Origin: Halegenticoccus soli
Lineage (GTDB): Archaea > Halobacteriota > Halobacteria > Halobacteriales > Haloferacaceae
Length of the DNA: 64,000 bases
Assembly: GCF_002844195.1 (NCBI RefSeq)
Contig: NZ_PEND01000008.1
Location: forward strand, 62,001 to 126,000
Reading direction: 5' to 3'
Part shown: positions 37,469-52,256 of the stretch, in pieces
Layout: each line of letters begins with the position of its first letter
Position numbering within the stretch: position 1 is the first letter of the stretch
Position numbers and translations under genes: made by a program
Notes under the pieces: generated by a model
What the model saw: the letters and a program-made list of their open reading frames with translations, nothing else
What the model was told of the DNA's origin: nothing
The model's database searches: none

Positions 37469-37543
37469 GCTCCGGTAGTGTAGTCCGGCCAATCATATTG
37501 CCCTCTCGAGGCAATGACCGGGGTTCAAATCCCCGCCGGAGCA
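37469..37543 (+). tRNA. tRNA-Glu (anticodon CTC)
   Basis: Seventy-five bases fold as a cloverleaf: acceptor GCTCCGG pairing with CCGGAGC, anticodon stem TTGCC/GGCAA with loop CTCTCGA (anticodon CTC, Glu), and T arm GGGG-TTCAAAT-CCCC. Base 37543 (A) is the discriminator, with no encoded CCA. No intron. The 3' half (from 37500) is the integration site of the element that follows. Confidence 0.95.
37500..37543 (+). repeat. attL (3' half of tRNA-Glu)
   Basis: Forty-four bases from GCCCTCTCGAGG through the anticodon loop, T arm and acceptor end. Identical to 52213-52256. Here it is part of the intact tRNA. Confidence 0.9.
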
Positions 37544-37763
37544 CTCCTACCCCTTCTCCTGCTGGTAGTTATCGCCCGCAAACGGAGATGCAATAAACAA
37601 ATGTTCACGGGCTATCCGACTCAGAAGGCCGGTCGAAGTCGCCGCCATCTGGCGATTAGCCGAAAAACGCCGGCAAGTGGACTCGAACGGAAAAATCAAC
37701 CGCCGTCTCGCGATCGTGAAACACCCGGGGCAAGCAACCGGGCCGTCCAGCGGGGGTCAGGCG

Positions 37764-38889
37764 ATGAAAAACGCCGAAGAGGCAACGAACCCCCTCGAAG
37801 GGATCTCGGTCGTCCCCGAACCATCAGAAGCGGTCCTCAATCAACGCCAGCTCATCGACTACCGCTCCCAGCGCGAGCAGTGCCTGGAGTGGCTGCTCAC
37901 GTTCGGCAAAGAACCCGAGCGCGCAGAGGGATACGCGTACATGACGGTCAAGAACCGCAGCCATCGGATGGACGCGTTCTACCGGTGGGTGTGGGAGGAG
38001 TACGGTGGCTATACGGCCAACATCGCACGAGCACGGGGACGCCTGGCTGCAACACCTCGCCCGCCAGGAGAAGAGCAACGCGCATAAAGCGAACGGCCGG
38101 AAGGCGGCCCGAATGCTGTTCAAGTGGCGCGAACACCAGCACGGACTCGACGAATGGAAGCCGCAGATCTCGTTCGCCACACGCGACAAGACCACCGCTC
38201 CGCGAGACTACCTGACGCGCGAAGAACGGACCGCTATTCGAGAGGCAGCGCTCGAATACGGGACCGTTCCTGCGTACGCGAACCTCTCACCATCGGAGCG
38301 AGACCGCTGGAAGGCGTACCTGGCCCAGCGATTCGAGAAACCGAAGTCGAAGGTCTCACCGGAAGACTGGGAGAAGGCGAACGGCTGGAAGATCCCGAGT
38401 CTCGTGTGGGTGAGTCTCGACGCTGACCTGCGTCCAATTGAAGTTGAGCGTGCAGTGACAAGCTGAGTCGATCTCGAAAACGGGGTGCTGCGCATCCCGA
38501 AGGAACAGAGTTCGAAGAACGTGGGGAACTGGATCGTCGGCATGCAGCAACGGACCGTGGACATCCTCGAACGCTGGTTGAATCAGCGTGCGGCCTACGA
38601 GAAGTACGAGGACACGGACAGGCTGTGGCTGACGCGACAGGCAAATCCGTACCAGACTGCGTCGTTGCGATACGTCCTGCACCGGCTCTGCGAGCTTGCA
38701 GACATCTCGACCGAGAACCGGCAGATGAGTTGGTACGCGATCAGGCACTCGACGGGTACCTATATGACCCGTGAGGAGGACCTCGCGGCCGCACAGACCC
38801 AGCTCCGACACCACAGTCCAGAGACGACGATGAAATACGACCAGACGCCTGTCGAAGATCGGCGTAACGCACTGGACCGTATGGGGTGA
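37764..38889 (+). pseudogene. tyrosine integrase (XerC/D-like), broken by a frameshift and a stop
   Basis: From ATG 37764 the frame reads as an integrase N-terminal SAM-like domain (YRSQREQCLEWLLTF, MDAFYRWVWEEYGGYT). Near base 38028 the reading shifts: the next frame continues HEHGDAWLQHLARQEKSNAH, KAARMLFKWREHQHGLDEWK, LDADLRPIEVERAVTS. An in-frame TGA follows at 38464-38466 where family members probably have Trp, then VDLENGVLRIPKEQSSKN, WYAIRHSTGTYM and QLRHHSPETTMKYDQT (catalytic Arg-His and Tyr) to the stop at 38889. Two lesions make it inactive unless recoded. Confidence 0.85.
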
Positions 38890-39346: not shown

Positions 39347-39553
39347 ATGGCCACGAGAGTAGAGACCCCTGACGCCGACGAAGTTTGTGCGTATTGCAGT
39401 TCCCGCGTTTTCGACCACGATCCAATCTGTGTCCGTGACTGTACCGCTGACTGTGGTTCGCCGACATATTTCTGTAACTACGCCTGTCTGTCGGCGTATA
39501 TCGACGAGAACGAACTGAGCTACGGTAACGCTTGTAAGTGGTCGCCCGAGTAG
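39347..39553 (+). CDS. small cysteine-rich (zinc-binding) protein
   Basis: Protein of 68 residues from ATG 39347. Eight cysteines: VCAYCSSRVF, ICVRDCTADCGS, YFCNYACLSAYI. The last part looks like a treble-clef/TRASH-type finger (YFCNYACLSAY), a fold also used in metal-sensing TRASH domains. Role unknown; a metal-related role would fit its place upstream of the MerB-like cluster, but this is inference. Confidence 0.55.
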   Translation: MATRVETPDADEVCAYCSSRVFDHDPICVRDCTADCGSPTYFCNYACLSAYIDENELSYGNACKWSPE

Positions 39554-39593: not shown

Positions 39594-39608
39594 CCCCAAT
39601 ACACTGGG
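39594..39608 (+). promoter_or_regulatory. operator-like palindrome 1 (before the HTH_10 gene)
   Basis: CCCCA, six bases (ATACAC), TGGG; 38 bases before the ATG at 39647. Same motif and spacing as at six other starts in this element. A TATA-like TTTAG lies at 39576-39580, further away than at the other sites. Confidence 0.6.
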
Positions 39609-39646
39609 CACAATGATTTACTCGCAAGCCTCCCTACCAGCCAAGT

Positions 39647-40288
39647 ATGCGTGAGGCTGTTTTGTCCGTGAGCGACGATGAACTCGCCGCGTTGGGAATA
39701 CAGGATCTCGTTGCCCTCTGCCGGTCGGCCGGCCTCAGAGACTTCGAAGAACTTGAGTGCCAACCGACGGGAGCAGTCATCCGCATCGAAGTCGAATCCA
39801 GGCTCGATGAGGACCGACTCCAAGCAATGGACTACGTGAACTGGTGGGAACGGGTGACATCGTCGGACGATTCACAGCAGTACATCCTCTCATTCACTGC
39901 ACCGAATCTTTCGGAGACTATCTCGGATCATGCTGACGACTTAGTCGGCACCTGTAACCCAGAGATGACGGATCAAGGAGCAACCCTCTCTATTGTCGGT
40001 CCCCACGATGCAATTAGCGGGACACTTGACGAATACCGGTCATCGGGGATGTCCCCTCGTCTTCGGAGAATCACCTCGTACAATGGGACAGAGCGACCGC
40101 TGGACAGACTCACTGATAGACAGCAGGAGGTGATTCAAACCGCCTACAATATGGGATTTTACGAAGTCCCCCGAGAGACGTCAACAGAAGACGTCGCTGC
40201 TACACTGGACATCGATCCGTCAACGGTCGCAGAGCATCTACAACGTGCGGAACGGAACTTGTTATCCCGATTCCTCGATACCGAATAG
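39647..40288 (+). CDS. HTH_10 (bacterio-opsin-activator-like) transcriptional regulator
   Basis: Protein of 213 residues. The C-terminal part is the HTH_10 domain of Bat-like haloarchaeal regulators: LTDRQQEVIQTAYNMGFYEV, PRETSTEDVAATLDI, STVAEHLQRAERNLL. The N-terminal 140 residues form a beta-rich sensor-like region with WWERVTSSDDSQQYILSF. It is the only clear transcription factor inside the element and has the element's palindrome in its own promoter, so it may control the seven-promoter set and itself. That link is inference. Confidence 0.8.
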   Translation: MREAVLSVSDDELAALGIQDLVALCRSAGLRDFEELECQPTGAVIRIEVESRLDEDRLQAMDYVNWWERVTSSDDSQQYILSFTAPNLSETISDHADDLVGTCNPEMTDQGATLSIVGPHDAISGTLDEYRSSGMSPRLRRITSYNGTERPLDRLTDRQQEVIQTAYNMGFYEVPRETSTEDVAATLDIDPSTVAEHLQRAERNLLSRFLDTE

Positions 40289-40867
40289 AGATCAAGTACG
40301 TTCCACCTCCCATCATAAACCGAACGACGAAGAACACAGCAAATCAGCTCAAGCCTGCTGATTCTCTGCCGAGCCGGGTGATTCGTCTCATTAATCCAGT
40401 GTAGAGCAGCCATCTCCAAACTGAGGATAACCATTATTGCATTGCAGTCTATCGCCAGCAGACTGTCGCAGTGATCACTGTAGTGGGCCGAAGCTGAATA
40501 AGACGAAATGAATGTCAGTGGCCCCGGCGGTGGTCATATCACGGATGACACAGCCAACCATCGTGGCTAGCGCGAACGTCAACTATTGGCAGAGGGTAGA
40601 TGCTGCCGATACTGCCGTGAAAACCACCGTTGAACGGGAAGCACGCGTACTTAGGACGGTCTACGTTACGGGCCCATCGGTCGAGTTCAAGGCTTCTGGA
40701 TCACCCCAAAACCGTTCGTCCCGATGGAGGACCCACTGGGGATCAGAACTGGGCTCCTTCAGGCAAGTCATAGCCAGCTAGTGTCACTGTTTGTTATGAT
40801 TTCAGAAGGGTTCAACAGAGTCCGTTTCGACTCAGCGTTATGGGATACTCGGCGTCACCATAAACCT
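40289..40867 (+). other. intergenic stretch after the HTH_10 gene
   Basis: No gene can be supported in the 579 bases before the micro-ORF promoter. Frames here are short and lack recognisable protein patterns; one 89-codon frame at 40512-40781 is mostly non-biased sequence. From about 40816 the first copy of the 225-base repeat begins. Confidence 0.4.
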
Positions 40868-41040
40868 CCCCAGATAACTGGGAGATGGACCTTTGGTGGT
40901 ACCGGAGGTATGACCGAACAGAATGGATCCCGATACTGAGGGAGGGGAGCAACGATTCCTCCATTATCGGTCTTGGTGGAGTAAGGTATGCGGTTGGCCG
41001 GTGCTAAAAATAGACGGCCTACCGAAAGTTCGGCACAGAG
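40816..41040 (+). repeat. imperfect direct repeat, copy 1
   Basis: About 225 bases recur at 42317-42543 with roughly four-fifths of bases the same by eye. Each copy holds a promoter, the palindrome and a micro-ORF. They lie on either side of the PQQ-type lipoprotein gene. Confidence 0.75.
40868..40882 (+). promoter_or_regulatory. operator-like palindrome 2 (before micro-ORF A)
   Basis: CCCCA, GATAAC, TGGG, directly after a TATA-like ATAAAC at 40860-40865 and 40 bases before the ATG at 40923. Sits between TATA and the expected start of transcription, so a bound protein would probably repress. Confidence 0.6.
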
Positions 41041-41066
41041 CAAGCAGGTATCGGTTGCTTCTGTGA
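40923..41066 (+). CDS. micro-ORF A, 47 residues
   Basis: Short frame with a promoter and palindrome like those of the larger genes nearby. It begins MDPDTEGGEQRFLHYRSWWS and includes KVCGWPVLKIDGLPKVRHR. Its paralogue at 42425 shares PDTEG-EQR, WSKVC, WPV and IDGLPKVR, although the rest differs. I know no family. The conserved amino acids and ATG spacing argue for a translated product; the small size leaves room for chance or for a regulatory RNA. Confidence 0.45.
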   Translation: MDPDTEGGEQRFLHYRSWWSKVCGWPVLKIDGLPKVRHRASRYRLLL

Positions 41067-41126
41067 ACGGACTACTGAGTAGGTTCACAAAACCCATACA
41101 TAATCGTCCACGACTATTTATCTAGA

Positions 41127-42314
41127 ATGCCCTCCGACACGTCATCCCCGCCGACACGCCGTGCGTTCCTCGCGGCCTGCGGAGCAATCACGCTTTCTGG
41201 GTGTACAGGTGTCTTCGCACAGAGCAGATCGTCCCCACCGGTTGAGTGTTCTCCGACGGAGTCATCCTGGCCGATGTACGGATACGACGCCGCTCACAGG
41301 AGCTATGTACCGTCTCGGGGGCTCCCGCCGGCAACTGCTGATGCGCATCGATTCTCCCAGACCGGCACGAGCCGAAACGGAGGTGGGAGTACCGAGGCCC
41401 CGCCCGCTATCGGCGATGGGGTCGCCTACATCGCGGGTGACGTCCGGATTGAGGCCCGTGACATCGAGACGGAAGAGCGCCTCTGGGAGATCGATCCCGA
41501 AGATAGCGTCGCTACCAGTCCCGTCCTCGCCTGCGGGGTTGTCTACGTAACGACACTCAATGAAACGCTCGCACTCGATCCAACTGACGGATCCGTGGTA
41601 TGGCGAGCGGAGGGTGGCGCACCCGGTGACGTGTCTGCCTCGCCTGTTGCCGTTGACGATCGACTCTACGTTGCGACGGGAGGCGTGGCCGCGCTCGATG
41701 CTGAAACCGGGAGCGAACGCTGGCACGCGAGTACTGAGCACGTTGTCCAGGGTGTCGCCGTGGATGATCGCGTCTACGTCGGTGCGGCAAGCAACGGGAG
41801 CGGCGAAGTCGCCGCCTTCACGATTGATGGCGACCGCTGGTGGCGAACCACCGAACCCGGACAGGTGTACACCACGCCTGTCGTCACCGAGAACACAGTG
41901 TATGCGGTTTCGAAGACCGGGACGGTGACGGCGCTCGCCGCGACTGATGGGCACGTTCGGTGGCAGGAGAGCGTCGAACCTGGCGTCTTCCAGCCGCCGG
42001 CACTCGCCAATGACCGAATCGTGGTGGGAGCAGGCAACGGCACCCAGACGATAGCGCTCGACGCGACGACCGGTGAGCGCCTGTGGACGTACGAGACAGG
42101 CGTCAGTAAGAGCGCGCCGGTCGTAGTCGGTGACCGGGTGCTCGCCACGGGGGCGAACACTGGAATTTACCTGCTGGACGCCGCGACCGGTGATCGCGTC
42201 CGGCACTGGGCCACCGAGAACGTGGGATCGCAGCCAGTAGTCGCTTACGAGCGGCTGTTTTACCGGGCGTGGAACGTTTCAGACGTGTTCGTAATCAAGG
42301 ACACCCCGGCCTAG
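41127..42314 (+). CDS. PQQ-like beta-propeller lipoprotein
   Basis: Exported protein of 395 residues. Signal: PTRRAFLAACGAITLSGC, a Tat motif followed by a lipobox Cys. The body shows repeated propeller blades: GVVYVTTLNETLALDPTDGS, RLYVATGGVAALDAETGSER, YAVSKTGTVTALAATDGHVR, IVVGAGNGTQTIALDATTGE. No catalytic motif of PQQ dehydrogenases is seen, so it is likely a binding or assembly scaffold outside the cell. It follows micro-ORF A by 60 bases. A TATA-like ATACATAAT lies at about 41096-41104. Confidence 0.85.
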   Translation: MPSDTSSPPTRRAFLAACGAITLSGCTGVFAQSRSSPPVECSPTESSWPMYGYDAAHRSYVPSRGLPPATADAHRFSQTGTSRNGGGSTEAPPAIGDGVAYIAGDVRIEARDIETEERLWEIDPEDSVATSPVLACGVVYVTTLNETLALDPTDGSVVWRAEGGAPGDVSASPVAVDDRLYVATGGVAALDAETGSERWHASTEHVVQGVAVDDRVYVGAASNGSGEVAAFTIDGDRWWRTTEPGQVYTTPVVTENTVYAVSKTGTVTALAATDGHVRWQESVEPGVFQPPALANDRIVVGAGNGTQTIALDATTGERLWTYETGVSKSAPVVVGDRVLATGANTGIYLLDAATGDRVRHWATENVGSQPVVAYERLFYRAWNVSDVFVIKDTPA

Positions 42315-42316
42315 AG

Positions 42317-42543
42317 TCACAGTCTGTTTTGACTCAACGTTGTGAGATCCGCGGCGTCACCATAAATCCTCTCAGGTGACTGGGAGATAGACCTTCGGTA
42401 GTACCGGAGATGTGACCGAACGTAATGGAGCCCGATACTGAGGGAGCGGAGCAGCGAGTTCTCCGGCATCAGTTTTTGTGGAGTAAGGTGTGCTATTGGC
42501 CGGTGGTAGAAATAGACGGCCTACCGAAAGTTCGGTACAAAGA
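42317..42543 (+). repeat. imperfect direct repeat, copy 2
   Basis: Second copy of the 225-base repeat at 40816. It keeps ACCATAAA, the palindrome region, GATACTGAGGGAG, TGGAGTAAGGT and AGACGGCCTACCGAAAG in the same order. Confidence 0.75.
42371..42384 (+). promoter_or_regulatory. operator-like palindrome 3 (before micro-ORF B, degenerate)
   Basis: CTCA, six bases (GGTGAC), TGGG, after a TATA-like ATAAAT at 42362-42367. The left half differs at one base from CCCA. Forty bases separate it from the ATG at 42425. Confidence 0.5.
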
Positions 42544-42553
42544 AACTACGTAA
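42425..42553 (+). CDS. micro-ORF B, 42 residues
   Basis: Paralogue of micro-ORF A: MEPDTEGAEQRVLRHQFLWS then KVCYWPVVEIDGLPKVRYKE. It ends 23 bases before the lipoprotein gene and probably shares its transcript. Function unknown. Confidence 0.45.
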   Translation: MEPDTEGAEQRVLRHQFLWSKVCYWPVVEIDGLPKVRYKETT

Positions 42554-42576
42554 CCAGTTTAGCAATAGACAACAAT

Positions 42577-43032
42577 ATGAATCGGCGACGGTTCCTCGTT
42601 ATCGCTGGAGGCGCATCCCTCTCTGCCCTCTCCGGTTGTCTCAGCAATCCGGGGGTGAATGGTGGATTGTTGGAAGTACTGTCCGCCGAGGTGCCACCTC
42701 AGGCTAAGGTCACCGACGCGACCGACGAACGGATCGGCGACATCGAGCCAATACAAACTGGGCTTCAGCAGGCCCAGCAATACGGCACGGCGAACGTCGA
42801 CGTGACCGACGACGAGTATGAGATGGTAGCGCAGACGCTGTCGGTCCTCCCATGGTATTCCCGACTCGAACGTGACTCTGACTACATTTCGGGAATCTAC
42901 ATCTAATATGAAGACGCCGCGTACGTAGTCGTCCTCACACCGTACTGTACCGACTCGTGGCTTTGGGACGCGCACAGTGAACGCGGTGACTACGGATGGG
43001 GAGGGTGTATCGACCTGCGAGAACAGAAGTAA
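42577..43032 (+). pseudogene. small lipoprotein gene with an in-frame stop
   Basis: From ATG 42577 the protein starts with a Tat/lipobox signal (MNRRRFLVIAGG, LSALSGCLSNPG) and runs 109 residues to a TAA at 42904-42906. The same frame continues beyond the stop with convincing sequence, YEDAAYVVVLTPYCTDSWLW and GDYGWGGCIDLREQK, to a second stop at 43030-43032. A single base change (for example GAA to TAA) explains this, giving an original protein of 151 residues. The truncated form could still be exported. Not assigned to a family. Confidence 0.6.
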
Positions 43033-43199
43033 TGGCAGAATCATAGCCCTCATTCGAGGGTAATCAGAAAGTGCCACAACGATTCTCCCCGACCTACGGG
43101 GAATACTCAGTCCACAGTCCGAGCGGATCGAGGGGAGAAGTAGGATGACAACCCGTGATACAGTCTCTGCCGACAACTAAACCAATTCAAGTTAAACCT

Positions 43200-43215
43200 C
43201 CCCAGTAAGGTGGGG
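43200..43215 (+). promoter_or_regulatory. operator-like palindrome 4 (before MerB-like 1)
   Basis: CCCCA, GTAAGG, TGGGG, directly after a TATA-like TTAAAC at 43192-43197 and about 40 bases before the ATG at 43255. Confidence 0.65.
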
Positions 43216-43254
43216 GATAGACAATTCGAAAGGAATACTGTATCCCGATGTGCG

Positions 43255-43881
43255 ATGGATTCCGAATCAGAGCACTCTGCGAGACGAACGAAACTCCCGA
43301 CTGACTTCGCTAAGCATGCAGCTGCCGCGACTGGTATCGACGCTCTCCCAACGACGTTGGAGGAGTGGTGGTCGGTAGTTCTCGACCAGTACCAAGCAAA
43401 CGACCTCACGATAGGACTTGATGATTTGTACAGTGAGACTCCGACTTGCCACGAAGTCCACGTGAACGGCTGCGTCCGGTACACGCACTGTGCTCTGGAC
43501 GCTCTGGAGGCGGCAGTGATAGTCGAACAGGATGAGGTGACTGTCCGGTCAGTTGATCCAGTGTCGGGGACTCCTGTGACGTTCGCGGTGGACGACGACG
43601 GCGTAACGGTATCGCCCGAGGAGGTGCTGGTCTGTTTCGGAGCGAACCTGGATCCAGACGCTATCGAGGCTGCGGGGTCACTCGCTGCGTGGTCCGTGCA
43701 AGACGACAAGACCGAAATCAAGAGTGGAGTCTGCCAGTACACCAATGCCTTCGAGAGCGAGGTGACCTACGAACAGTGGGCAACGGAAACAGATAGCGTA
43801 ACTGCACCGGTACCGCCGGCCAATGTTATGCCGTTACTACGTAAGCTGCCGTACGACAGTGACGACTCGGCTAGTAGTTAG
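43255..43881 (+). CDS. alkylmercury lyase (MerB) family protein 1
   Basis: Protein of 208 residues. It keeps the MerB catalytic pattern: CALD (Cys79, Asp82) corresponds to Cys96/Asp99 of E. coli R831 MerB, and VCQYTNAFESEVTYEQWA (Cys160) aligns without gaps to the Cys159 region, including Phe, Ser and Trp-Ala. MerB splits carbon-mercury bonds to Hg(II) and a hydrocarbon. The N-terminal part is not the usual winged domain in any obvious form. A GTG at 43210 is in frame but lies inside the palindrome, so the ATG at 43255 is chosen. Organomercury as substrate is unproven. Confidence 0.7.
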   Translation: MDSESEHSARRTKLPTDFAKHAAAATGIDALPTTLEEWWSVVLDQYQANDLTIGLDDLYSETPTCHEVHVNGCVRYTHCALDALEAAVIVEQDEVTVRSVDPVSGTPVTFAVDDDGVTVSPEEVLVCFGANLDPDAIEAAGSLAAWSVQDDKTEIKSGVCQYTNAFESEVTYEQWATETDSVTAPVPPANVMPLLRKLPYDSDDSASS

Positions 43882-43919
43882 CTGTCGAAGCAGGGCCCAG
43901 TGAAGGAGAGTCTACCTCT

Positions 43920-44540
43920 TCACTTTCCCACGTGGGTACGAGCTGCTTGCTTTGAAAGGGAGAACGCCTTCTCGACGGAAAGCTCCACCAGGGCTGCCTC
44001 CGAAATTTCTGCCGCCCATCGTTCGAACGACGCGGAGTCCGGGAAGGCGTTGGTCACCGCACAAGTGGTTGGAATCGGTGCATCTGGAGCATTGAGCGTG
44101 TCCTTGACCGAATCAAAGTCAGGGTTCGTCGATTCCTTGATACCGAGTCCGAACGAAATGACGGCACTCGTCGGGACCACGGTGACGCCGTCTTCGGTGA
44201 CGCGGAAGCGAATTGTCACACCGGCTTCGGGAGATTCCGAGTAGATTTCGACTGTGTCGTCTTCGTGGAGCAACGCCACGATCAGCGCGTCCATCACGCA
44301 GGGGACGTACTTGACTGTGCCATCGATGTGTACCGCGTGTCGCGTCGGCTCGGGCTGATACATGTCTTCGGGCGTGATTGTTACTCCGGCCTCGTTCAGC
44401 CGATCCGTAACGGCACTGTGTCCCGCTTCGAGGGATTCAGGTCGCTCGTCGAGGCTGCCAGCGCGACGGAAGGCTTCGGCCAGGTCTGACGGCAGGTCAG
44501 TTCGGTCAGCGAATCTGGTTTCCCTGTTTGAGTTCACCAT
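43920..44540 (-). CDS. alkylmercury lyase (MerB) family protein 2
   Basis: Protein of 206 residues, divergent from the first paralogue. Catalytic pattern CVMD (Cys81, Asp84) and TTCAVTNAFPDSASFERWA (Cys160) keep the Cys-Asp-Cys triad and the Trp-Ala spacing. The block YQPEPTRHAVHIDGTVKYVP parallels YSETPTCHEVHVNGCVRYTH of paralogue 1. It is 111 bases downstream of the MFS gene on the same strand but has its own TATA-palindrome promoter. It converges with MerB-like 1 (38 bases apart). Confidence 0.7.
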   Translation of the reverse strand: MVNSNRETRFADRTDLPSDLAEAFRRAGSLDERPESLEAGHSAVTDRLNEAGVTITPEDMYQPEPTRHAVHIDGTVKYVPCVMDALIVALLHEDDTVEIYSESPEAGVTIRFRVTEDGVTVVPTSAVISFGLGIKESTNPDFDSVKDTLNAPDAPIPTTCAVTNAFPDSASFERWAAEISEAALVELSVEKAFSLSKQAARTHVGK

Positions 44541-44577
44541 ATGAGACCGAGACGAACTGGATTAGGAGAACTGTTAT

Positions 44578-44592
44578 CCCCATCGTGTGGGG
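44578..44592 (-). promoter_or_regulatory. operator-like palindrome 5 (before MerB-like 2)
   Basis: CCCCA, five bases (TCGTG on the plus strand), TGGGG. On the minus strand it follows an A-rich AGAAAAG element and lies 38 bases before the ATG at 44540. Confidence 0.65.
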
Positions 44593-44651
44593 ATGGCTTT
44601 TCTACTGTCGTACGTTTTGTATCGACAAGCGTGTTCGAAATCGGAGTGGAG

Positions 44652-45944
44652 TCAGTCTTCGAGCACTGTCCGAGTCGGTGATTTTGGGGTTGGGACCGGT
44701 GGTTCGTGTGTGCCGAAGTCGGGATGCGTCTCTTCCATCCATGCGTAAACGATTGTACCGGAAGTGAACATCAGGATTGATGTGAGATAGAAGGCGGCCT
44801 CGGTGTGGACGATCTCCATCGTGAGCCCAATCAGGATTGCGCCGACGGCGTAGCCGGCGTCACGCCACATCCGGTAAACGCCCATACCTGCCGACCGCCA
44901 TGTCGGATGCGCCGCATCGCTAGGAACGGTCATCAGGTTCGGGTACAGTAATGCCATGCCCAGCCCTGAAGTGGCTGCTACAATCGTCCACGAGAAGTAT
45001 CCTTCGACGAAAACCATTCCGAGCACACCGCCTCCCGCGAGGAACATCCCCACGAGTACTGGAGGACGACGACCGATCTGATCAGCAAGGCCGCCGGTCA
45101 CAATCTGGAGGAAGTACATCGCAGTATGCACGCCGACGACGATACCGACTGCTGTGATGTCGAGTCCCTGGCTCGTGAGGTACAACGGTACTGCGATCCA
45201 GAATAACGTGTCCACGAAGTTCTCGACGTGGCCGGCCTGCGCTGCGGCGAACAGCGTCCTGTCGCCATAGGTCGCTCGCTTCAGAACCTCAGTGAAGGGA
45301 AGATCGGCATCGTAGTGATCACCATCGCTTTCGGCTTGGGCGTACTGGACGGTCTCCTTGATGAGGAAGATCGAGATGAGGAACGCCAGCAGGACGACCG
45401 CTGCAAGGAAGTAGAACGGTTCGGGCCGGTAACTCTGAGTCTGGCCAGCGATGAGACCCGTAACCCATGCGCCAACGGCGACGCCGGTGTAGCCGAATGC
45501 TTCGTCGATGCCGACTGCGAGCCCACGCTGGTCGGGGCCTGCGAGGTCGATCTTGGCGTTGATCGCCATACTCCAGGTCAAGGCTTGGTTGATTCCCAGC
45601 AGAATGTTCCCGAGAGTGATCCATCCCCAACTGGGAGCGAAGATGAGGATAATCGGAAGCGGTAGTGCGGTTGCCCACCCGAGGATGAGCACTGGCTTGC
45701 GGCCGTACTCCTCGCCCCACTTGCCGGCGTAGAGGTTGAGCAGCGACTTGACGAATCCGAACGAGACGACGAACGACCCGATAACGAGGAACGACTCGAC
45801 GCCGAGCACTTCTTCTCCCAGAACGGGGACGACGGTGCGTTCGGACCCGATAGTCAACCCGGTGGCGAACACTAAGAGGACGTGCAGTGAGAACTGCCCG
45901 AGGTGTTCGCGGATCCCTCGTTTGAGGTCCGTGGGTTCGCTCAT
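44652..45944 (-). CDS. MFS transporter of the MerB-like cluster
   Basis: Membrane carrier of 430 residues with twelve predicted helices. Motif A appears as GKWGEEYGRKPVLILG in the first half and GLADQIGRRPPVLVG in the second. Other features: NILLGINQALTWSMAINAK and GLAVGIDEAFGYTGVAVGAW. It is three bases downstream of the rhodanese-MBL gene, so both are on one transcript controlled by palindrome 6. It probably exports a product or imports a substrate linked to the MerB-like proteins. The direction and substrate are unknown. Confidence 0.85.
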   Translation of the reverse strand: MSEPTDLKRGIREHLGQFSLHVLLVFATGLTIGSERTVVPVLGEEVLGVESFLVIGSFVVSFGFVKSLLNLYAGKWGEEYGRKPVLILGWATALPLPIILIFAPSWGWITLGNILLGINQALTWSMAINAKIDLAGPDQRGLAVGIDEAFGYTGVAVGAWVTGLIAGQTQSYRPEPFYFLAAVVLLAFLISIFLIKETVQYAQAESDGDHYDADLPFTEVLKRATYGDRTLFAAAQAGHVENFVDTLFWIAVPLYLTSQGLDITAVGIVVGVHTAMYFLQIVTGGLADQIGRRPPVLVGMFLAGGGVLGMVFVEGYFSWTIVAATSGLGMALLYPNLMTVPSDAAHPTWRSAGMGVYRMWRDAGYAVGAILIGLTMEIVHTEAAFYLTSILMFTSGTIVYAWMEETHPDFGTHEPPVPTPKSPTRTVLED

Positions 45945-45947
45945 AGG

Positions 45948-47060
45948 TCACTCAGCAGCGCAGTTATTCGGTCCTAATTCCAGGTCAGCCAATTCGTCGG
46001 TGGGAACGGATTCCTGCCCCACGTTTACTCGCTTGACGCGCTCGAAGTTCGGCGGGTGGTCTGGGAGATCTGACGCGAGTTTCTGGACGAATTCCTCGCG
46101 GTCACGTCCCAGATCGGCGTTCCGCTCTCTGAGTTCACCGAGCGTCGCGGTAACTGGCGGTTCTGGTGAGCCAGGGTCGTGTGCTGGCAGCACAACGGTG
46201 TCGTCCGGCCGGTCGAGCAACCGCTGGAGGCTCTCGTAGAGCGTCTCCGCGTTCTGTTCGACGTCGGTGTCTTCGATTCCGGATTCGACGCCGAGTTCGA
46301 CCCGTCCCACGCTCTCGTGGAAGAGTGTATCACCCGTGAGCAGCGCTGCACCGTCGATATCGAACGAGACGCTTCCTTCGCTGTGACCAGGGGTGTGGAT
46401 GACCTCGATGTCGAGCCGACCGACAGAGATGGTCTGTCCATCCGCAACAGGTATTGCATCTATAGCGAGCGCATCCTTCGAATGAAGGTGGTAGGGAATG
46501 CCGTGACAGTCGGCGAGTTCCGCCGCCCCAGACACGTGGTCAGCGTGGGCATGTGTATCGAAGACGCCGACGAGTTCGGCGTCGTACTCGTCGATGATTT
46601 CCTCATACTCGGAAAGATACTGTGACGGGTCGAAGACAGCAGCTTCCCCATCCGAGACGAGGACGTGGGAGAGACATCCTTTCCCGGGACGGGTGACTTG
46701 CACGAGCGTCCCCTGGAATCCTGTCTTGATCGGGGCACTCCGGTGGACACGGCTCCATCCGTTCATCCCGTCAACGAGCGTTTTCGCATCGTAGCCCAAC
46801 GTCTGGAGACGCTCCGTCGCTTTTCGAGAGATGACGCCAGCCGCGCAGACTGTGACTATCTCGTTCTCGTCCGGCACGTCCGACAGAGCACGGTCAGCGT
46901 TCGCTGGGTTCTCCTTCAGTTCATCGTAGACGGGAACATTTTCGCTTCCGGGAATGTGCCAGTCTTCGAACTCGTCCTCGTTCCGAATATCGAGAACGAA
47001 GAGTATCTCGTCGGCAGCCTGGAGTCGCGTACTTAATTTATCGGGCGTGATTTCGGACAT
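45948..47060 (-). CDS. rhodanese / metallo-beta-lactamase fusion (persulfide dioxygenase-like)
   Basis: Protein of 370 residues. Residues 1-105 are a rhodanese domain: DKLSTRLQAADEILFVLDIR, DWHIPGSENVP and the active-site loop VCAAGVISRK (Cys72). From 115 onward is an MBL domain with THAHADHVSGA (His170, His172, Asp174, His175), HTPGHSEGSVSFD, LLTGDTLF and a final His in LPAHDPG. This build resembles ETHE1-type persulfide dioxygenases combined with a sulfurtransferase. It heads an operon with the MFS gene and shares a divergent promoter region with MerB-like 3, so sulfur or thiol chemistry probably belongs to the system. Confidence 0.85.
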   Translation of the reverse strand: MSEITPDKLSTRLQAADEILFVLDIRNEDEFEDWHIPGSENVPVYDELKENPANADRALSDVPDENEIVTVCAAGVISRKATERLQTLGYDAKTLVDGMNGWSRVHRSAPIKTGFQGTLVQVTRPGKGCLSHVLVSDGEAAVFDPSQYLSEYEEIIDEYDAELVGVFDTHAHADHVSGAAELADCHGIPYHLHSKDALAIDAIPVADGQTISVGRLDIEVIHTPGHSEGSVSFDIDGAALLTGDTLFHESVGRVELGVESGIEDTDVEQNAETLYESLQRLLDRPDDTVVLPAHDPGSPEPPVTATLGELRERNADLGRDREEFVQKLASDLPDHPPNFERVKRVNVGQESVPTDELADLELGPNNCAAE

Positions 47061-47098
47061 ACCATCCGTAACTTGTCGTATTCGTCCGAATTCGTGAT

Positions 47099-47114
47099 CC
47101 CCACCACACTGGGG
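47099..47114 (-). promoter_or_regulatory. operator-like palindrome 6 (before the rhodanese-MBL/MFS operon)
   Basis: CCCCA, CCACAC, TGGGG. On the minus strand a TATAA (47119-47123) precedes it by four bases, and the ATG at 47060 is 39 bases beyond it. Confidence 0.65.
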
Positions 47115-47182
47115 CCCCTTATACTGGCGGTCTCTACTGTCCCGACGGAGTGTTTTGGCCGCTCATGACCATGGATAAACGC

Positions 47183-47197
47183 TCCCAACTAGTGGGG
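47183..47197 (+). promoter_or_regulatory. operator-like palindrome 7 (before MerB-like 3)
   Basis: TCCCA, ACTAG, TGGGG, after a TATA-like ATAAAC (47175-47180) and 38 bases before the ATG at 47235. Fits the others in everything but one base of the left half. Confidence 0.6.
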
Positions 47198-47234
47198 GGG
47201 CACATCAATTGACGGCCGGGTGCTGACTCCAGCC

Positions 47235-47882
47235 ATGACAGACGAGCCATGTCCATGTTGTGGTAACGTTGATGAACTGGCTTCCGAAATCGAAACGTCT
47301 GCGGGTCAGTGGATTAGAGAAGAATCCGTTCTCGACACGGAACTTCCCCGGGGCATGCGAGTGGCTCTCGGCCGGTTCCTCGGATCGGATTCAATTGAAA
47401 CGTTGGGCGAGTGGGCCTGTGAAGTACGTCAACACGTCGGTGGATCAATTAGTGTCGAGGAACTGTGTCTATCCAGCGAACAGACGGAACACTGGGGGAT
47501 AGTAGACGGTGACCAATACTATTTCGCGTGCTTCTACGACGCGGTGATACTAGCAGCCCTATCGGATCAACCGGTCGATATTCACACTGTAAGCCCAGCT
47601 GGAGACACTATCGAGGCCCACGCAATCGGGAGCAGTGAACTTACAGTTGCACCAGAAGAAGCTATTTTCTCGTTCGGTATCGAGAAAACCGTAGAACCAT
47701 CATCAGACGATAGCCCAACCCTGGAACAAGGATACGCCTCGATCTGTCCATACGTCAAAGCATTTCCTAATTTCGCAGCGTATGAACGATGGGCGAAGCG
47801 TGTCCCGGCAACCACCGTCGCTATGCCGCTCGCTGGAGCGACAGAACTCGCGGCTGAACTGGTGAGAAGAGCACCCGAGTAA
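47235..47882 (+). CDS. alkylmercury lyase (MerB) family protein 3
   Basis: Protein of 215 residues, the most divergent paralogue. Catalytic pattern CFYD (Cys99, Asp102) and ICPYVKAFPNFAAYERWA (Cys171) keeps the triad and spacing. It adds an N-terminal CPCCG motif that could bind a metal (MTDEPCPCCG). The start at 47235 is chosen over GTG 47220 because it gives the 38-base spacing from the palindrome. It diverges from the rhodanese-MBL operon. The order of MerB-like genes, MFS and rhodanese-MBL is compact enough to be one functional set. Confidence 0.7.
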   Translation: MTDEPCPCCGNVDELASEIETSAGQWIREESVLDTELPRGMRVALGRFLGSDSIETLGEWACEVRQHVGGSISVEELCLSSEQTEHWGIVDGDQYYFACFYDAVILAALSDQPVDIHTVSPAGDTIEAHAIGSSELTVAPEEAIFSFGIEKTVEPSSDDSPTLEQGYASICPYVKAFPNFAAYERWAKRVPATTVAMPLAGATELAAELVRRAPE

Positions 47883-48706: not shown

Positions 48707-49438
48707 TCATTCACTATGGGGTTCTGTGAGGAATTGCCGCATGAACTGGTCTCTTCCTTCTGGCGTGTTCTCGATCACTGCGTCGACGTGTTTCACAGGC
48801 ACAGATTGTTGGTCGGTACTTGACCGAGGTACTTTGGCCGCAGACGAGGGCGTCCTCTTTTGGCCCCCGTCCGCGTATGGGTTGAACCCGGGATCTTCTG
48901 CGGCCCGCTGAGCCGTTTCGTTGACCTTCTCAAGAGTATGACGTCGGCTTTCGATGGACGAAGTAGCGTAGAATAGCTTCATTGTCTCGATGCTTTTGTG
49001 CCGGAGTTGATCACTGGCCTGTGACAAATCCTCTTCTTCTTCGATGGATTTGCCGAGACTGTGTCTTAGCGAGTACCAGACGATTTTCCGGTCTTCGTGA
49101 TCGATACCGGCCTCTTCGCAGAATCGACGGACGAGGTAACAGAGGTTTTTCGAGGTGTAGGGATTTCCGTTTCTGTTCAGCCAGAGGCGATTCGTCCCGT
49201 CATACTGTTCGTAGTGTCGTCGCTCCTGAATCCACTTACTCAACAGGTTGACCGTGTCTTCGGTGAGCGGTAACTCGGTCGTCGGTCGATCCTTCGATGC
49301 GAACTCATTCGGTATCCGGAGGAGGTTGCGTTTCGGCTTGTACCAATCCACTCGCGCCTCTTGGACCTCTATCGGTGTGATTCCCGTTTCCAACGCCTTC
49401 GTGATGAGCGAACTCCACTGGGCGATCCGCGCCTCCGT
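48707..49438 (-). pseudogene. catalytic half of a second tyrosine integrase
   Basis: Minus-strand frame from 49438 down: ARIAQWSSLITKALETGITP, IEVQEARVDWYKPKRNLLRI, IVWYSLRHSLGKSIEEEEDL and QLRHKSIETMKLFYATSS. It corresponds to the C-terminal catalytic domain only. Where functional relatives have a catalytic Arg (as in DADLRPIEV of the first integrase) this one has Thr (ETGITPIEV), so it is probably inactive. A TAG stands at 49439-49441 in frame, and the N-terminal half is gone at a junction with the next fragment. Confidence 0.7.
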
Positions 49439-52212: not shown

Positions 52213-52256
52213 GCCCTCTCGAGGCAATGACCGGGGTTCAAATCCCCGCCGGAGCA
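52213..52256 (+). repeat. attR (copy of the tRNA-Glu 3' end)
   Basis: Exact 44-base copy of 37500-37543 lacking the tRNA 5' half, so it is not a functional tRNA. It marks the right junction of the element. Confidence 0.9.

Follow-up and report, generated by a model that had tools for sequence, protein, structure and literature searches.

Organomercurial lyase (MerB) breaks the carbon-mercury bond by protonolysis and hands Hg(II) on for reduction by MerA. In Bacillus, TnMERI1 unites three divergent MerB genes (merB1, merB2 and merB3) in one mobile element as a broad-spectrum module, and the available portions of two sources report that MerB1 and MerB3 prefer different organomercurials (PMC6920998; PMC8261052). 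Multiple plasmid-borne MerB enzymes raise phenylmercury resistance in Pseudomonas K-62, according to the accessible part of PMC3737084. In a survey of 1959 archaeal genomes, MerB was found in only 11, always as a single copy, and about half of the MerB genomes it covers lacked MerA; the accessible text also covers the roles of Cys96, Asp99 and Cys159 in MerB (PMC8261052). The window analyzed here is a stretch of 64,000 nucleotides from Halegenticoccus soli (NZ_PEND01000008.1, positions 62,001 to 126,000), lying on contig C8 of a haloarchaeal genome 4.6 Mb in size, and our subject is an integrated element within it that encodes three MerB-family proteins, B1, B2 and B3. This element is probably a haloarchaeal organomercury-resistance island seated in a tRNA-Glu gene, with a regulon split from merA and an HTH_10 regulator replacing MerR.

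A first-pass annotation, made from the letters of the DNA, had placed three MerB-family open reading frames (ORFs) with a Cys-x2-Asp block and a later Cys in this element. All three were confirmed in position and strand.

43255..43881, plus strand: B1, MerB family, lineage linked to merA (PF03243, E 2.8e-20)
43920..44540, minus strand: B2, MerB family, divergent lineage (PF03243, E 2.2e-18)
47235..47882, plus strand: B3, MerB family, common haloarchaeal CFYD lineage by tree, N-terminal CPCC (PF03243, E 4.2e-15)

Each passes the curated Pfam cut-off of 27 bits in the profile search that the annotation had proposed (B1 73, B2 66.8, B3 56.3). B1 and B2 are convergent with 38 bases between them, and an MFS transporter gene and a gene for a rhodanese and metallo-beta-lactamase fusion (MBLR) separate B2 from B3. 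Equivalents of Cys96, Asp99 and Cys159 are present in all three, in the blocks CALD...VCQY (B1), CVMD...TCAV (B2) and CFYD...ICPY (B3); in B2 the triad Cys are the only two Cys of the protein. The same residues dominate the 70 MerB ORFs of our survey of the class, with Cys96 in 68, Asp99 in 67 and Cys159 in 69; only fragments and one ORF (L091), in which GVLV replaces the Cys-x2-Asp block, depart from this. In an alignment of 66 haloarchaeal MerB sequences the later Cys, a Phe and a Trp are kept without exception. Half of these sequences (33/66) also have Cys-x-Cys within the first 45 residues, often as CxCC, the CPCC of B3 being one case; this could possibly be a metal-binding tail.

Structure prediction points to the same family. 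AlphaFold2 models of B1 and B2, built from 66-row alignments, reached pLDDT values of 88.0 and 86.3. The best match of the B1 model is MerB 3f0o (Z 14.3, rmsd 3.0 over 145 residues), and the eight PDB entries listed for it are all MerB or MerB2. For the B2 model, 11 PDB chains matched at E <= 0.001, every one MerB or MerB2, and a PDB search with B2 as a single sequence gave no match. Run against the PDB, a profile of the 66 haloarchaeal sequences retrieves E. coli MerB (2.9e-8) as well as MerB2 (0.0088). B1 and B2 are thus predicted to adopt the MerB fold, as the structure prediction suggested by the first-pass annotation was meant to probe, and for B3 the profile match points the same way.

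Such a set is rare among haloarchaea. MerB was detected at E <= 0.001 in 58 of 391 genomes of the class, 57 of them above the cut-off, and only this genome and one other (G384) hold three full-length copies, two of those in G384 scoring identically. A profile search of the genome's contigs found no MerB beyond B1, B2 and B3. The earlier remark that three MerB-like enzymes in a few kilobases are unusual therefore stands for haloarchaea in the 391-genome sample and fails as a general statement, since Bacillus TnMERI1 has three merB genes by the accessible account (PMC6920998).

The three genes do not appear to be copies of one another. Pairwise identities among B1, B2 and B3 are 30.3, 25.1 and 27.9%, and in a MerB tree of 78 rows each takes its own position. 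B1 falls in a six-row clade (support 100/99) with proteins of Halorussus, Halosimplex, Haladaptatus, Halomarina and Haloarcula JP-L23. B2 forms a long branch near that clade, and its placement is unsure because it pairs with another long branch. B3 lies in the large CFYD-motif clade, among HTH_10-linked proteins. Identities of 25-30% and three separate tree positions exclude a tandem duplication of one merB; by sequence comparison, then, the genes were brought together from separate haloarchaeal lineages and not copied in place.

The absence of merA from the window, as first annotated, extends to the entire contig, on which a profile search gave no MerA match. The genome-wide check that the annotation had proposed finds a genuine merA operon on a different contig, its merA (C2:512494-513930) scoring 512 bits against the NCBIfam cut-off of 454 and carrying GTCVNVGCVPSK and C-terminal Cys-Cys motifs. 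Another role for the family, hinted at by the missing merA, is weakened by this gene. The mer system is split within one genome: no operon holds merA and merB together, merA being on contig C2 and all three merB on C8. The neighbours of merA are an ArsR-type regulator gene in divergent orientation and genes for a TlpA-like lipoprotein, for a CcdA-like membrane protein and for a second MerA-like protein, a set also found in Haladaptatus halobius. The second MerA-like protein (L070 7500-8906, minus strand, and relatives) scores about 400 bits, below the cut-off, and accompanies MerA; it was seen in this genome, in G384 and in Haladaptatus, Halomarina and Halosimplex genomes.

The B1 lineage in particular keeps company with merA, which is present in 6 of 7 B1-type cases, this genome being the starting case, against a class rate of 53/391. 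The two genes are adjacent in Halorussus vallis, Halorussus aquaticus and Halosimplex carlsbadense; merA lies elsewhere in the genome in Haladaptatus halobius, Halomarina halobia and here. The membership of B1 in a clade with annotated merA-merB operons, together with the profile matches and the match of the B1 and B2 models to known structures, upholds the original MerB assignment.

A promoter element ties the island together. The palindrome CCCA-N5-6-TGGG lies upstream of the HTH_10 gene, B1, B2, the MBLR-MFS operon and B3, its near edge 38-41 bp before the ATG, and by eye a TATA-like stretch adjoins it.

39595..39608, no strand: operator-like palindrome of the HTH_10 gene, near edge 39 bp from the ATG
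39647..40288, plus strand: HTH_10 regulator, candidate controller (PF04967, E 1.3e-19)
43201..43214, no strand: operator-like palindrome of B1, near edge 41 bp from the ATG
44579..44591, no strand: operator-like palindrome of B2, near edge 39 bp from the ATG
44652..45944, minus strand: MFS transporter, in an operon with MBLR (PF07690, E 1.2e-43)
45948..47060, minus strand: MBLR, rhodanese and metallo-beta-lactamase fusion (PF00581, E 6.9e-14; PF00753, E 9.3e-15)
47100..47113, no strand: operator-like palindrome of the MBLR-MFS operon, near edge 40 bp from the ATG
47184..47196, no strand: operator-like palindrome of B3, near edge 38-39 bp from the ATG

The 64-kb window contains the strict palindrome seven times, and six of these copies fall within 39595-47196; other haloarchaeal flanks, totalling 956 kb, contain it 46 times. 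Two regulatory classes can be told apart among haloarchaeal MerB genes, those next to an HTH_10 gene (20 ORFs) and those next to an HxlR gene (38 ORFs). A count of the relaxed palindrome over 69 MerB ORFs (L057 left out) placed it near the merB start in 15/20 HTH_10-linked and 0/38 HxlR-linked cases, in 3/8 with neither neighbour and in 3/3 in this element; random 190-mers contained it in 117 of 5000. The palindrome also precedes the HTH_10 gene, at 39 bp, in two loci linked to merA, L158 and L153 (the latter a repeat of L048). As a constant feature of MBLR genes the palindrome was rejected: read by eye, the 160 bp upstream of MBLR lack it in all 29 other loci with this gene.

If the element is an organomercury-resistance island, the HTH_10 protein would bind the palindrome that adjoins the TATA box and regulate all five promoters in response to mercurials. 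Between the two Cys and the Asp of each MerB, R-Hg(+) would undergo protonolysis to R-H and Hg(II), and the distant MerA may reduce the latter to Hg(0). With three lyases the host could attack a broader set of organomercurials, in the manner of Bacillus MerB1 and MerB3. The pair of MFS and rhodanese/metallo-beta-lactamase might be accessory, serving, at a guess, in export or in the handling of mercury-thiol or persulfide adducts. Lyase activity, binding by the regulator, differences in substrate and a place for MFS and MBLR in the same pathway are what we infer from these comparisons. A more ambitious version, which we put forward tentatively and would not yet bet on, is that haloarchaea possess an organomercury-response system of their own: an HTH_10 protein of the bacterio-opsin-activator type would stand in for MerR, sense mercurials and drive several MerB together with MFS and rhodanese/metallo-beta-lactamase through CCCA-N5-6-TGGG, the pair forming a mercury route additional to MerA.

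Several observations weigh against an organomercury island under HTH_10 control. At the position of Cys117 of canonical MerB, none of the 70 haloarchaeal ORFs, B1, B2 and B3 included, has a Cys, and the proteins fall short of the NCBIfam MerB equivalog NF009710 (44.1, 45.5 and 31.2 bits for B1, B2 and B3, against 193). The accessible text of the survey gives the canonical definition of Christakis et al. 2021, which adds Cys117, calls the activity of 117alt variants untested and states that methylmercury demethylation had not been described in Archaea (PMC8261052). On these two tests, both of sequence, we class the three proteins as 117alt-type members of PF03243 and not as canonical MerB. They are no better placed in SaoL (NF040728), for which B1 scored 15.9 bits against a cut-off of 140 and B2 and B3 were not listed. 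Across the 391 genomes, MerB occurs in 58, MerA above the cut-off in 53 and both in 6. A general coupling of the two in haloarchaea was therefore rejected: MerA is present in 6/58 genomes with MerB and 47/333 without (Fisher p 0.54), so many family members may do something else. Even within the B1 type, the seventh case, Haloarcula JP-L23, gave no MerA on the single plasmid record searched.

The regulatory argument meets objections of the same kind. The HTH_10 protein is linked to the palindrome by position only. The difference between 15/20 and 0/38 (Fisher p 5e-10) ignores kinship, and the HTH_10-linked loci are partly related by descent; moreover, the relaxed motif was refined while these very loci were in view. 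In loci found later (L152, L155, L156, L158 and L163), a palindrome lies within 160 bp at only 6/16 gene starts, some of which are alignment starts and not start codons, compared with 1.9% of random 160-mers. The B1 orthologues in L152, L155, L156 and L158 have none within 160 bp. A single palindrome regulon that includes merA was rejected, as no core motif was found near the merA promoter; merA and the island are therefore not one regulon by that test.

Among other explanations, the one that survives best, although we consider it unlikely, is that the MerB family in haloarchaea has shifted to other organometals or to metal binding (organotin, organoarsenic, Cu), mercury being no more than a side substrate. 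It would account for the 52 of 58 MerB genomes without MerA and for the Cu-type P-type ATPases beside MerB in several loci, and MerB-like 99Ser variants are described as binding other metals in the accessible part of PMC8261052. However, Asp99 is kept in 67 of the 70 ORFs, and the one B1-lineage case without merA is a lone plasmid record. P-type metal ATPases directly adjoin HTH_10-linked MerB in six loci (L044, L047, L050, L051, L094 and L097); they were matched by a CopA query at more than 1200 bits, the ATPase domain of L044 by Pfam. In five other loci (L042, L046, L055, L060 and L088) a gene for a DoxX-like membrane protein overlaps MerB.

A mixed set, in which B1 is a mercury lyase coupled to merA and B2 and/or B3 have drifted to metal sensing or storage, strikes us as a little less probable again. 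The long branch of B2 and its restriction to the two triad Cys would suit it, as would the N-terminal CPCC of B3 and the usual lack of merA in the B3 clade, but all three proteins keep the whole triad and a common promoter element. That the island is decaying, its resistance genes remnants with no present function, is very improbable: one integrase is broken and the other lacks its N-terminal part, yet three intact frames at 25-30% identity keep their triads and regularly placed palindromes.

The element that holds the three lyases spans about 14.7 kb and is bounded by a tRNA-Glu gene and a copy, at least 43 nt long, of its 3' end. G+C is about 0.51-0.62 within it and mostly 0.63-0.74 beyond. 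GatB and SufB/D genes lie on the same contig, and the element is therefore probably chromosomal. Its remaining features are as follows.

37469-37544, plus strand: tRNA-Glu gene (ARAGORN)
37501..37543, plus strand: left att copy, 3' part of the tRNA-Glu gene (exact 16-mers recurring at 52214-52256)
37677..38889, plus strand: remains of a tyrosine integrase, disrupted by one frameshift and one stop codon into three ORFs over two frames (Phage_integrase, E 4.6e-11 for the last piece)
39347..39553, plus strand: 68-aa Cys-rich protein with TRASH-like spacing by eye and no Pfam match
41127..42314, plus strand: PQQ-repeat beta-propeller lipoprotein-like gene (Pfam)
48707..49393, minus strand: tyrosine recombinase, catalytic part only (Phage_integrase, E 2.9e-10)
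52214..52256, plus strand: right att copy, repeat of the tRNA-Glu 3' part, at least 43 nt

Relatives of the small Cys-rich protein occur in L080, close to a copper-type P-type ATPase and MerB (76%), and in L151, close to MBLR (62%). A direct repeat of 235 nt (40816-41050 and 42318-42552, 82% identical) precedes the PQQ-propeller gene and a small lipoprotein gene; it contains a palindrome at 40869 and, near 42369, a weaker one. The PQQ gene (41127) and the lipoprotein gene (42577) were left out of the regulon, as neither start has a palindrome within 160 bp.

Parts of the module recur in other haloarchaea. MFS-MBLR and MerB are no more than about 7 kb apart in Halomarina halobia and in L064, L082 and L085 of the survey, and MBLR without MFS lies equally near MerB in Haladaptatus halobius. 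These two species share the gene order MBLR, HTH_10, MerB1, second MerB, and H. halobius has a third MerB and an HTH_10 gene beside its merA operon. In G360 (L064 5334-6996), MFS-MBLR accompanies two MerB ORFs, one of only 129 aa, and HTH_10, and the genome also has MerA. MBLR orthologues occur in 84/391 genomes, 26/58 with MerB and 58/333 without (p 1.6e-5), mostly not near MerB; MFS-MBLR is also present on Halobacterium NRC-1 plasmid records. A mercury-specific role for the pair was rejected, as it is common in genomes without MerB (58/333).

Hypersaline basins are mercury sinks, and the identity of methylmercury degraders there therefore matters. Haloarchaeal MerB is now traced to 58/391 genomes and includes multi-copy sets; its loci are named, its proposed operator can be tested, and the problem of MerB without MerA gains two cleanly separable classes, HTH_10-linked and HxlR-linked.

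Among the relatives of solved structure, MerB2 carries Ser at position 99. B1 is predicted to share the fold of E. coli MerB (1S6L, 3F0O) and Bacillus MerB2 (5C17), with Z 14.3 and 12.9, and equivalents of Cys96/Asp99/Cys159 are common to them; the haloarchaeal proteins differ in their 16-21% identity and in the absence of Cys117. Closer relatives are the merA-merB operons of Halorussus (NZ_CP100403.1, NZ_CP100003.1), whose merB is 49% identical to B1 (tblastn), with an HTH_10 gene adjacent and the same palindrome upstream of both; there, however, one merB of B1 type adjoins merA, and the stretch read has no MFS-MBLR pair. Plasmid unnamed3 of Haloarcula sp. JP-L23 (CP050017.1) carries HTH_10 and three MerB inside 3 kb; one MerB is orthologous to B1 (61.6%), but the other two come from a different lineage than B2 and B3, no MFS or MBLR is on the stretch, and the genes are annotated as hypothetical proteins.

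As far as we found, the three-merB arrangement is known in bacteria and not described in archaea; no paper on multi-MerB sets in archaea or on HTH_10 control was found by title in the openly licensed PMC literature. TnMERI1 is its nearest bacterial parallel in gene number. According to the available portions of the two accounts, TnMERI1 is a class II transposon in which merR, merT, merP, merE and merA accompany the merB genes (PMC6920998; PMC8261052). Here, in contrast, no merR, merT or merP was recognized, merA lies on a separate contig, tRNA-Glu is the site of integration, and HTH_10 and MFS-MBLR share the promoter element.

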